From Flavobacterium shii (GTDB lineage: Bacteria > Bacteroidota > Bacteroidia > Flavobacteriales > Flavobacteriaceae): a DNA stretch of 64,000 bases. The stretch covers positions 1 through 64,000 of the forward strand of contig NZ_JAOZEW010000017.1 in NCBI RefSeq assembly GCF_025847235.1, read 5' to 3'. Both the position numbers and the translations under genes were made by a program. The stretch's first letter is position 1; the number at the start of each line of letters is the position of its first letter. Under the pieces are notes generated by a model. That model did not search any database. It was not told the origin of the DNA and saw only the letters and a list, made by a program, of their open reading frames with translations. Shown here one piece after another: positions 28,175-31,695 of this stretch.

Positions 28175-28816
28175 TTGAAAGACACTGCCAAACATCAAGG
28201 ACTTCGGAATCAATTAGTAAGCACTTTGCAACAAAAGGGAATTACCGATAAAGCTGTTTTGGAAGCGATAAAAAAAATCCCAAGACACCTTTTTTTGAAC
28301 TCTAGCTTTGAAGATTATGCATATCAGGACAAAGCTTTCCCGATTGGTGCGGGGCAAACCATTTCACAACCTTACACTGTTGCGTTTCAATCGCAGTTGT
28401 TAGAAGTTAAAAAAGACCATAAAGTACTGGAAATTGGTACAGGGTCGGGGTATCAAACGGCAGTATTATTTACACTTGGAGCCAAAGTATATAGTGTTGA
28501 AAGACAAAATGAGTTGTTTAAAACAACATCAATTTTGTTCCCGAAGTTAGGAATTCGTCCTAAACATCTTTCTTTTGGTGATGGTTATAAAGGTTTACCT
28601 AGCTATGCTCCATTTGATAGTATAATTGTAACAGCAGGAGCACCTTTTATTCCGCAACCATTAATGGCACAGCTAAAAATTGGAGGAAGATTAGTGATTC
28701 CGCTAGGAGAAGACGTTCAGATAATGACGTTATTAATTCGTAAAAACGAAACACAATTTGAAAAACATGAGTTTGGAGAGTTTAGATTCGTTCCTTTATT
28801 AGAAGATAAAAATTAA
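28175..28816 (+). CDS. pcm: Protein-L-isoaspartate O-methyltransferase
   Basis: The 213-residue SAM-dependent methyltransferase starts repair of isoaspartyl residues. Motifs are IPRHLFLNSSFEDYAYQDKA, IGAGQTISQPY, and motif I LEIGTGSGYQTAVL. FDSIIVTAGAPFIPQPL and GGRLVIPLG follow. The start is TTG at 28175. No ATG fits upstream, and the sequence KDTAKHQGLRNQLV matches the family N-terminus. Confidence 0.95.
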   Translation: MKDTAKHQGLRNQLVSTLQQKGITDKAVLEAIKKIPRHLFLNSSFEDYAYQDKAFPIGAGQTISQPYTVAFQSQLLEVKKDHKVLEIGTGSGYQTAVLFTLGAKVYSVERQNELFKTTSILFPKLGIRPKHLSFGDGYKGLPSYAPFDSIIVTAGAPFIPQPLMAQLKIGGRLVIPLGEDVQIMTLLIRKNETQFEKHEFGEFRFVPLLEDKN

Positions 28817-29266: not shown

Positions 29267-30274
29267 TTATTGAGAAACTAATTGGATTGCATGTTGTAAA
29301 TTTTCCTTTTCTACTTGAGCTACATAGTTTATAAAAACAGCGTTGTCATTTTGATCCTGACTTTTTTTCAAAATAGTTAGATATTCATTTTTATGTTCTT
29401 GATCACCTTGTATTGTTGCAAAAACAAAGCCATTTTGTAATAATATCCAATTCATTAATAAATGGGCTATTTGCATGTTTCCACTTTCAAAAGGACTAAT
29501 TGTTATGAATTTTAAATGAACTTCGGAAGCTAATATTATTGGATGTAATGAATTTTTATTTGTTTCAAACCAACTAAAAAGCGAATTCATTTCGCGCGCT
29601 ATTAATGGATCATTTTTATATTTTCCGGCATGATCGGGTTTTATGCTTCTCAAGATTAAACTATGAATAGTTAGTAATTCCTTTTCATTTATGGAGCTGT
29701 TTTTTTGAGTTAAATCTTTTATGTATGAAATTGCTTCGTGCTGATTTACCGCTTCTAAATGCTCTCGCATAGTTTTTCCTGCAATTGTTAATCCTTCATT
29801 AATTACAGCTTTTGTTTCTTGTAATGTAAGTGAGTTTCCATTAATGCGATTGCTTTCGTATGTAAATTGCAATTCTAATATTTTAGAAATTCGGTGTAAT
29901 TCAAATTGTTGAAATGATTGTGTTTTGTTTTTTAAAACTTCAATCTCATCCAAGATATTTTGAAGTGATGATAAAATTACAGAAGTAATTATTTTTTTAT
30001 TATTCTGAATTTCAATTTCGGCAAGATGCAATGCTTTTAAAGCAAGTTCTTCATGACCAATTTCGTGTATTATTTTTTCTTTTAGCCAAATGATTAATAA
30101 GCTTTCAAAATCAATTTCGAGTAAAGCAGCAAGTTTAACGATTTGCTCTCGTGTGGGTTTTCGAGAACCACTTTCAAACTTACTTATTAAAGCTTGATCT
30201 ATTTCCAGTAGCTGAGCAACTTCACGAGTCTTGAAGCCTTTTTGTTCTCGGGCATTTTTGAGTATAGTTTTCAT
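29267..30274 (-). CDS. XRE-type HTH protein fused to a degenerate Fic domain
   Basis: The 335-residue protein has an N-terminal Cro/C1-type HTH (about 1-52, REQKGFKTREVAQLLEID, ISKFESGSRKPT). A helical region and a Fic fold (about 150-310) follow. The Fic core is changed: the usual HPFxDGNGRxxR reads SPFESGNMQIAH. This loses the catalytic His, the acidic residue and both arginines. The class II inhibitory motif, normally (S/T)xxxEGN, reads SNRINGN without the Glu. AMP transfer is therefore unlikely, and a regulatory or binding role through the HTH is inferred. ATG 30274 is preferred; an in-frame ATG at 30316 would add 14 unstructured residues. Confidence 0.85.
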   Translation of the reverse strand: MKTILKNAREQKGFKTREVAQLLEIDQALISKFESGSRKPTREQIVKLAALLEIDFESLLIIWLKEKIIHEIGHEELALKALHLAEIEIQNNKKIITSVILSSLQNILDEIEVLKNKTQSFQQFELHRISKILELQFTYESNRINGNSLTLQETKAVINEGLTIAGKTMREHLEAVNQHEAISYIKDLTQKNSSINEKELLTIHSLILRSIKPDHAGKYKNDPLIAREMNSLFSWFETNKNSLHPIILASEVHLKFITISPFESGNMQIAHLLMNWILLQNGFVFATIQGDQEHKNEYLTILKKSQDQNDNAVFINYVAQVEKENLQHAIQLVSQ

Positions 30275-30393
30275 TTTAAAAAACAAAGTATTATTTGTCA
30301 AGACAAGTTTAGTCATTAATTTTTAAATAAAAAAAGCATCAAAACGAATTCAATGCTGTCTTTAATATTAGGGGTTAGATCTTTAAACTGAAT

Positions 30394-31020
30394 TTATTTT
30401 TTAGGAATAGTTCCGTCTTTTTTCATTTCATTTACTACTGTTCTCATAATGTCATCTACAGTTACGCCTATATCTGTAACATCAGAGGATTGTGTAGTTC
30501 CTGTCCAGATTAATTTATTCTCTTTTAAGGAGAAAACATTAGTTTCTACAATATAATAAGTGTTTTCTACATAATAACCAGGAGAATAAAAATCGGTAGC
30601 GTATAAGCCGTACCATCCTCCAAAAGCTCCTGCGTAAATTCCATTGTAATCACCATAATAAATGCTGGTGTCTGTGCCGGGAACATAATCGGTTTGTTTC
30701 TCTTTACTGACCAATCGCATTGTTATGACACCATCATAATTTTCGTCTTTTAATATCTTTAATTTTTGATCGTTTGTGAGATCATTATTAATTTGATTCA
30801 AAAATTGATATGAAGTATGGAAGATAGGGCTACTGGAAGCAATTCTATTTTCGGTAATCCTGCGAGTCTCTTCATCTTTGACTAAAGCTACAATTAATAC
30901 TTTCTTGAAGTTTTCCGAGCTAATTGTTATTTTTGGATCTCTCCAACTACTAACAATTGTAGAGCTGGTTCCGCAACTATATAGTAAAGCAGCAATTATT
31001 ACAACAAATATTCTTTTCAT
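30394..31020 (-). CDS. Lipoprotein of unknown function (DUF4136-like)
   Basis: The 208-residue protein has a lipoprotein signal ending ALLYSCGTSS (Cys16). It begins with a SSWRDP motif after the signal and later has VLIVALVKDEETRR, DGVITMRLVSKE, a Tyr/Gly-rich stretch (about 118-150), and TTQSSDVTDIGVTVDDIM. The layout resembles DUF4136-type envelope lipoproteins, but I do not assign a function. It lies between the Fic gene and smpB, all on the - strand. Confidence 0.75.
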   Translation of the reverse strand: MKRIFVVIIAALLYSCGTSSTIVSSWRDPKITISSENFKKVLIVALVKDEETRRITENRIASSSPIFHTSYQFLNQINNDLTNDQKLKILKDENYDGVITMRLVSKEKQTDYVPGTDTSIYYGDYNGIYAGAFGGWYGLYATDFYSPGYYVENTYYIVETNVFSLKENKLIWTGTTQSSDVTDIGVTVDDIMRTVVNEMKKDGTIPKK

Positions 31021-31097: not shown

Positions 31098-31550
31098 TTA
31101 AAAAGCCTTCTTAATTCGATCCAAATCACGTTTGGTATCTTGTTCTTTCAAAGATTCACGCTTGTCATAGTTTTTCTTCCCTTTACAAAGTCCGATTTGT
31201 AATTTTGCTAGTCCTTTTTCATTTGTAAACAGTTTTAAAGGAATGATTGTTAATCCTTTTGCCTGTACACTTTTTTGAAGGCTTTTCAATTCTTTTTTGT
31301 TCAAGAGCAATTTTCTTTCGCTTCTTGATTTATGATTAAATTGATTTCCGAATGTATATTCTTCAATGTAGGTATTTATAGCAAAAAGTTCATCCCCGCT
31401 AAATTCGCAAAAGCTTTCGGTGATATTTGCTTTGCCAAGGCGTATTGATTTGATTTCGGTTCCAGCTAAAACAATTCCGGCAGTATAGGTATCTATTATT
31501 TCGTAATCGAAGCGGGCTCTCTTGTTGAGTATATTGACAGTTTTTAACAT
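31098..31550 (-). CDS. smpB: SsrA-binding protein SmpB
   Basis: The 150-residue protein binds tmRNA for ribosome rescue. NKRARFDYEIIDTYTAGIVL, GTEIKSIRLGKANI, and the basic tail KGKKNYDKRESLKEQDTKRDLDR are diagnostic. The start at 31550 is chosen over 31595 because the protein begins there in the family. In addition, a -7 element (TACATTTG, - strand 31564-31557) lies immediately upstream of 31550, so the longer form would start before the promoter. Confidence 0.96.
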   Translation of the reverse strand: MLKTVNILNKRARFDYEIIDTYTAGIVLAGTEIKSIRLGKANITESFCEFSGDELFAINTYIEEYTFGNQFNHKSRSERKLLLNKKELKSLQKSVQAKGLTIIPLKLFTNEKGLAKLQIGLCKGKKNYDKRESLKEQDTKRDLDRIKKAF

Positions 31551-31556
31551 AGTATG

Positions 31557-31564
31557 CAAATGTA
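31557..31564 (-). promoter_or_regulatory. -7 element of smpB (TACATTTG)
   Basis: An exact TAnnTTTG match placed 6 bp from the ATG implies a leaderless or nearly leaderless mRNA and fixes the start of smpB. No TTG lies within 23 bp upstream. Confidence 0.5.
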
Positions 31565-31695
31565 AAATAAAAAAGAAAAACTTTAATGAAATCAAAGATA
31601 ATTAAAGAATTTTTTTAACCTATGATTTTAATCATTTTTCAGGAAAAATCTTACTCTTAAGTTTGTTAAATAATTTATAACAAAAACTTAAAAAA

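Follow-up and report, generated by a model that had tools for sequence, protein, structure and literature searches.

The gene described here raises the question of why a bacterium would retain a DNA-binding domain joined to a Fic domain that has been stripped of its catalytic residues. Pseudoenzymes are usually taken as relics of one-way loss; here, however, live and dead forms alternate at an orthologous place among species of one genus. The gene lies in a window of 64,000 nucleotides (the whole stretch of DNA analysed) of the 5.58-Mb genome of Flavobacterium shii. The explanation towards which we lean, with reservations, is that it encodes a self-repressing XRE-Fic regulator residing at one fixed locus, in which the Fic half persists as a fold, is optional as an enzyme, and occurs in versions that are swapped.

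Organization of the locus and losses in the Fic domain

The gene (29267–30274, minus strand, stop codon included), delimited by its open reading frame, Pfam matches and orthologs, encodes a protein of 335 aa. An upstream ATG would give an alternative product of 349 aa; the alignable part of the relatives opens at MKTILKNAR, the start of the 335-aa form. The XRE-type helix-turn-helix (HTH) is intact, as originally predicted, and matches HTH_3 of Pfam at 4.8e-10 (39.8 bits, cut-off 23). The Pfam match and the identity profile define a region of HTH and first helices (residues 1–78; 30041–30274, minus strand) that is conserved across the live and dead versions of the gene. The linker and the Fic fold (PF02661; 3e-9, 38.1 bits, curated cut-off 24) make up an exchanged block of approximately residues 85–335 (29270–30022, minus strand), recognized by a drop in identity and by dS and dN in 13 sister pairs (see below).

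Three neighbours were distinguished: (i) a convergent, presumably pcm-like gene (28175–28816, plus strand), (ii) a gene for a putative DUF4136-like lipoprotein (30394–31020, minus strand), and (iii) a presumably smpB-like gene (31098–31595, minus strand), the first and the third serving as synteny anchors. An inverted repeat (AGCAT..ATGCT) with a run of T behind it (30329–30357, minus strand), seen by eye in the sequence, resembles a terminator and is located 3' of the upstream gene. Among the surrounding ORFs of at least 60 aa, none resembled the partner expected in a Fic toxin–antitoxin module.

The translated ORF bears out the altered Fic core and the inhibitory remnant SNRINGN that had been read from the DNA. 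The remnant of the Fic motif (S260-P-F-E-S-G-N-M-Q-I-A-H271; 29462–29497, minus strand) has lost the catalytic His, the Asp and both Arg residues, and the AMP-transferase motif HxFx(D/E)GN(G/K)RxxR is represented only by SPFESGNMQIAH. The class II motif (S/T)xxxE(G/N) is likewise absent from its place (S141–N147; 29834–29854, minus strand), the inhibitory Glu having become Asn145; a helix is predicted at residues 123–144. A third loss, absent from the original prediction, is a deletion in the flap, which is 14 residues shorter than in canonical orthologs, with the junction between residues 224 and 225 (29600–29605, minus strand). The Fic flap is described in PMC5651007 as the main docking site for target proteins.

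The expectation that the changes need at least two base substitutions holds for both key residues (S260 is AGT and N145 is AAT, each two bases away from CAT and GAA, respectively). A read error, thought unlikely from the outset, is ruled out by the occurrence of the same losses in six other genomes at 83–86% identity, and by the flap gap and changed Fic motif of all 29 open genes of this type (see below). The relatives with names in this identity range belong to Flavobacterium and include F. hydatis and F. frigoritolerans.

Distribution of intact and degenerate Fic cores

The search set comprised 398 Flavobacterium genomes, 238 of which gave some match and 210 of which yielded no full-length XRE-Fic gene. 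The alignment contained 182 XRE-Fic loci, one per genome and with one genome per species, including a locus with a run of N (L208). Left out were a canonical copy covered only in part (G335), two genes split over contigs (G003 and G180), a copy with a divergent N-terminus (G282) and two matches without an HTH (G174 and G309).

A core was counted as intact when H, F, D/E, GN and both R were all kept, a strict criterion set for this analysis. By this measure 126 of the 182 cores are intact (referred to as live) and 56 are degenerate. More than one kind of degeneration was found: 30 loci are flap-less like the window gene (referred to as dead), and 29 of these have open frames, all of which combine the changed Fic motif with the 14-residue gap (29/29). 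The sole interrupted copy, L246 of G102, carries stops. The remaining 26 degenerate loci are diverse, with H to Q alone (L164), D to N together with R to K (5 loci), R to K (L192), a lost flap with the Glu kept (L235), and others. A second, separate degenerating XRE-Fic lineage (L241, L242, L247 and L149) is nested among live forms and shows R to K, an altered flap and, in three of its four members, Glu to Asp.

The inhibitory Glu is present in every intact core (126/126), and is absent from 39 and kept in 17 of the 56 degenerate ones, counts that refer to related loci and not to independent events. Thirty of the 39 Glu-less loci are of the dead type, and six of the other nine carry Asp at this position. 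The proposal that the Glu disappears once it is needless agrees with this distribution, which fits a residue that an active enzyme cannot afford to lose. The pattern provides natural evidence for the Glu as a needed safety lock.

The same neighbours (pcm-like, smpB-like and often DUF4136-like) flank the dead gene at 28 loci and the live gene at 12 loci. Across the alignment pcm was detected at 171 and smpB at 176 of the 182 loci, some of which stop at a contig end. At several loci, e.g., L040, L044 and L065–L067, no DUF4136-like gene was detected in the interval from the Fic gene to smpB.

Of the 29 genomes whose dead gene is open, 19 also encode a separate Fic protein that matches the Fic half only. 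The window's own genome encodes such an HTH-less second Fic protein (G000:C22:13795-14397; L002), with an intact HPFFDGNGRTVR and SNSIEGN.

Of 80 searched genomes without a full-length XRE-Fic gene, 20 carry an HTH-only relative next to pcm, smpB or both; these copies (L345–L358 and L360–L365) are open frames of 121–165 aa. When the surroundings of pcm were viewed in 28 genomes without a full-length XRE-Fic gene, a whole HTH-only ORF was present in five, and in others the gap between pcm and smpB was empty or occupied by other genes. Since no full-length gene was found in 210 of the 398 genomes and an HTH-only copy occurs in just 20 of 80, the regulator itself is dispensable in many species. 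Of 397 genomes of the family, searched for copies in other genera, ten gave a match at 1e-30, two of them in Flavobacterium; only two of the other eight matches extend over the HTH, both with an intact core.

Selection on the dead form and its predicted fold

The dN/dS ratio of the Fic block ranges from 0.035 to 0.20 in seven close dead pairs and from 0.025 to 0.14 in eight live pairs (pairwise counts, ratios by hand; the broken L246 was excluded from the selection counts and gene trees). The dead block is thus faster than the live one, yet, at ratios far below 1, still constrained. The original prediction of a stable pseudoenzyme is upheld by the shared changes, the open frames in 29 of 30 copies and this purifying selection; shared residues in orthologs and a constrained fold were what it had proposed to look for, and both were found. 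It had named as the contrary outcome a decaying gene among canonical orthologs: orthologs with canonical motifs are indeed present at this locus, yet the gene itself is not in decay. That the dead form has no selected function and is simply decaying could draw on the interrupted L246 and on the faster evolution of the dead blocks, but the open frames, the low dN/dS and an exact upstream site (described below) in 28 of the 30 dead loci make it very improbable; coding decay was rejected on the first two of these grounds.

Dead and live proteins differ at 16 positions at the level of at least 90%, including E145N, R282Q, I277E and S284A. As modelled by AlphaFold (pLDDT 85.1), the dead protein retains the Fic fold: it aligns with human FICD over 233 residues (Z 31.0, rmsd 1.6) and with BT_2513 of Bacteroides thetaiotaomicron (PDB 3cuc; Z 29.4). 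Both are among the closest solved folds, and their alignments, which begin at about model residues 99–106, span the Fic half only; the VIA-align rows barely reach residues 1–96 and are uninformative on that part. Human FICD is an active enzyme with both the Glu and the flap.

A fold so preserved might serve a changed chemistry, the altered pocket binding a nucleotide or sugar nucleotide and acting on another target. In its favour, the residues P, F, Q and A of the dead motif do not vary among the 29 dead proteins, and there is a precedent in AvrB, which is described as lacking several Fic motif residues (PMC2686095) and reported to be a rhamnosyl transferase (PMC10866546). Against such a role stand the 14-residue flap gap at all dead loci and the loss of the His, the acid and both Arg residues in the window protein, and we consider it rather improbable.

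Probable exchange of live and dead versions at one locus

Thirteen dead/live sister pairs were picked by closeness, with the live locus L075 used twice. Their Fic blocks have a median dS of 1.40 and a median dN of 0.474, compared with medians of 0.36–0.95 and 0.004–0.059, respectively, for eleven neighbouring genes (OMPbb was measured in 8 of the 13 pairs and a yggS-like gene in 12). Rapid decay of the block in place of old divergence is ruled out by its synonymous divergence. Mean nucleotide identity per 10-codon window is 0.80–0.91 up to codon 80 and 0.41–0.78 from codon 81 to the stop; it drops at around codons 80–90 and rises again past the stop codon. Part of the sharpness of this border comes from how strongly the HTH residues are conserved. 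Within the HTH of the sister pairs, synonymous divergence is elevated as well (median dS 0.92), so that the exchanged tract often extends into the HTH.

In the gene tree the 29 dead forms constitute one clade (0.986), whereas in a tree of four neighbouring genes, in which the broken L246 was retained, they are dispersed through a part of the genus with 74 tips, dead and live. Over the 161 tips of the neighbour tree, at least 17 switches between live and dead are placed at nodes with support of at least 0.9. Plain parsimony gives 23 switches compared with a mean of 27.1 (21–29) for shuffled labels, so the live/dead label is dispersed almost at random. By flanking genes, the nearest locus is live for 15 of the 29 dead loci.

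An rpoB set of 28 hand-picked genomes (dead forms and, for the most part, the live ones nearest to them), reduced to 27 by the lack of a match in G390, gave a tree in which dead and live sisters are joined at support values of 97, 95 and 85, other nodes being weaker. In the AU test the block data rejected the rpoB tree (p 1e-7), and the rpoB data rejected the block tree (p 4e-88). Both trees were rejected by the HTH data, the block tree more strongly, which indicates that the border of the exchanged tract does not lie neatly at the domain edge.

The dead clade could be spurious if Fic activity had been lost in parallel, species by species, and the products resembled one another only superficially. 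Other separate losses are indeed known at this locus. However, the identical gap of 14 residues is present in all dead loci, and block dS in the sister pairs far exceeds flank dS. The group also persists in a tree made without the columns of the motif, the flap and the inhibitory segment, with a support of 75, or 98 when L245 and L249 are included (this tree holds 55 degenerate and 51 of the 126 live loci; support at several deep nodes is 39–74). Independent loss is therefore scarcely credible.

An ancient tandem pair of which each lineage has lost one copy would likewise leave interleaved species with two old versions at the same place, with no exchange between species, and recombination between tandem copies could produce chimeras. 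Against this, no open dead gene among the 29 is accompanied in its genome by a second, live XRE-Fic gene, nor was a second full-length copy found in 21 further genomes, and each of the at least 17 switches would have had to end in a single copy. Two pairs of live loci, moreover, have blocks less diverged than their flanks (dS 0.11 compared with 0.39 for L173/L157, and 0.12 compared with 0.34 for L190/L198), which suggests that live copies too have recently been transferred. We regard the tandem origin as unlikely.

Old, divergent Fic halves enclosed by closely related flanks make the live and dead halves look like old alternatives exchanged at one locus. Judged from these sequence comparisons, catalytic loss would then not be a one-way event in one lineage: old alternatives appear to have been swapped, with separate losses elsewhere, a pattern that the original prediction had not anticipated.

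A conserved site upstream of live and dead genes

A motif TGAC-N7-GTC-NN-GAC, the putative operator, was found upstream of the start codon at 165 of the 182 loci, live and dead; in the window it occupies 30297–30315 (minus strand), 23–41 bp 5' of the start codon. It begins 31–48 bases before the start at 164 loci and 169 bases before it at one. The exact site is missing at 17 loci, two of which are not assessable; among the dead-type loci, L246 is not assessable. A coding leader peptide was also considered and rejected, because the distance from site to start spans all three frames (64, 60 and 41 loci).

The full or longer site occurs once per genome, at the XRE-Fic gene, in 13 of 18 genomes; the reversed control gave two matches in total. 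A search for a wider regulon with a relaxed site of 15 bases returned 24 matches, spread over 8 of 11 genomes, compared with 21 for the reversed control, which is no clear excess. The TGAC-N7-GTC part is also present upstream of 5 of the 20 HTH-only copies at the locus. In G275, an XRE relative of 105 aa precedes a type III restriction (ResIII) gene (L330:1501-3015), and TGACAAAATAAGTCA begins 44 bases before the start of the XRE gene, whose product is a possible controller of the restriction system. Its presence before HTH-only copies and before the XRE gene of G275 suggests that the site is tied to the HTH and not to the Fic half.

A model for the XRE-Fic locus

The self-repressing regulator that we favour is grounded in the gene anatomy, the synteny, the shared losses, the purifying selection, the tree conflict and the conserved site. 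An HTH dimer would bind the upstream site and most likely repress its own gene, as CccR does (see below). The Fic half of the live version is probably an AMP-transferase, restrained by the inhibitory Glu and by low expression. The dead version would have lost catalysis, inhibition and target docking while retaining the Fic fold, which probably acts as a dimer-forming or partner-binding part of the repressor; alternatively, the retained fold may silence incoming live copies or, as originally proposed, may serve as a sensor or ligand-binding part. The live and dead halves would be old alternatives, passed from one species to another through recombination at this locus. Should its own promoter carry the only full-strength site, a dead protein that purely represses itself brings no obvious benefit, and one has to postulate a further target or partner.

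A rival explanation is immunity: a dead copy would repress the shared promoter and form mixed dimers against an incoming live copy, in a cycle of toxin and immune forms. The upstream site is common to live and dead genes and the two substitute for each other at the locus, as this would require. In Campylobacter fetus, one Fic protein is described as binding and neutralising a degenerate one (PMC5651007). The Fic half of the window protein matches the PADLOC models SoFic and PDC-S04, matches that make a link between XRE-Fic and phage defence possible, and Sofic has been reported as an abortive-infection toxin (PMC12249575). On the other side, the analysed genomes offered no sign of toxicity or mobility of the live form, and the lack of a live XRE-Fic in all 29 dead genomes means that mixed dimers could be only transient. 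We consider an antidote role doubtful.

A bolder proposal is that an enzyme and its own pseudoenzyme persist throughout a genus as interchangeable old versions at a single bacterial locus, shuffled from species to species under balancing selection, the resident dead copy silencing an incoming live one via the shared site; this may be so, although we would not expect it. The alternation among close relatives makes it possible to compare the cost and benefit of catalysis between genomes that are near kin. With the DNA-binding half retained, the enzyme half may be armed, disarmed or absent. The locus also offers a direct route to learning the role of bacterial XRE-Fic proteins.

Comparison with known systems

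Altered-motif Fic proteins and HTH-Fic autoregulators are each already known. In the open-licence literature searched, we found no description of a locus at which live and dead Fic versions alternate.

The degenerate Fic2 of C. fetus resembles the window protein in having an altered core motif while still being functional, but its motif, given as HPFREGNTRTIA, retains the His, the acid and one Arg (PMC5651007); helix-turn-helix is not mentioned in that paper's main text. AvrB shares a Fic-like fold that lacks several motif residues (PMC2686095), but is described as an effector that is injected into plants and whose flap carries an inserted domain, and as a glycosyltransferase (PMC2686095; PMC10866546).

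Two of the known systems combine a Fic fold and an HTH in one protein. CbFic2 of Coxiella burnetii is a Fic protein in which DNA binding by the HTH is described as controlling the Fic half; in contrast to the window protein, it is an active (de)AMPylase and its HTH is C-terminal (PMC10628234). CccR of Yersinia pseudotuberculosis is reported to repress its own promoter via a palindrome, independently of its toxicity (PMC9755527). Its HTH is also C-terminal, and its Fic half AMPylates FtsZ and the protein is secreted, whereas the window protein carries an N-terminal XRE-type HTH and a dead Fic half.
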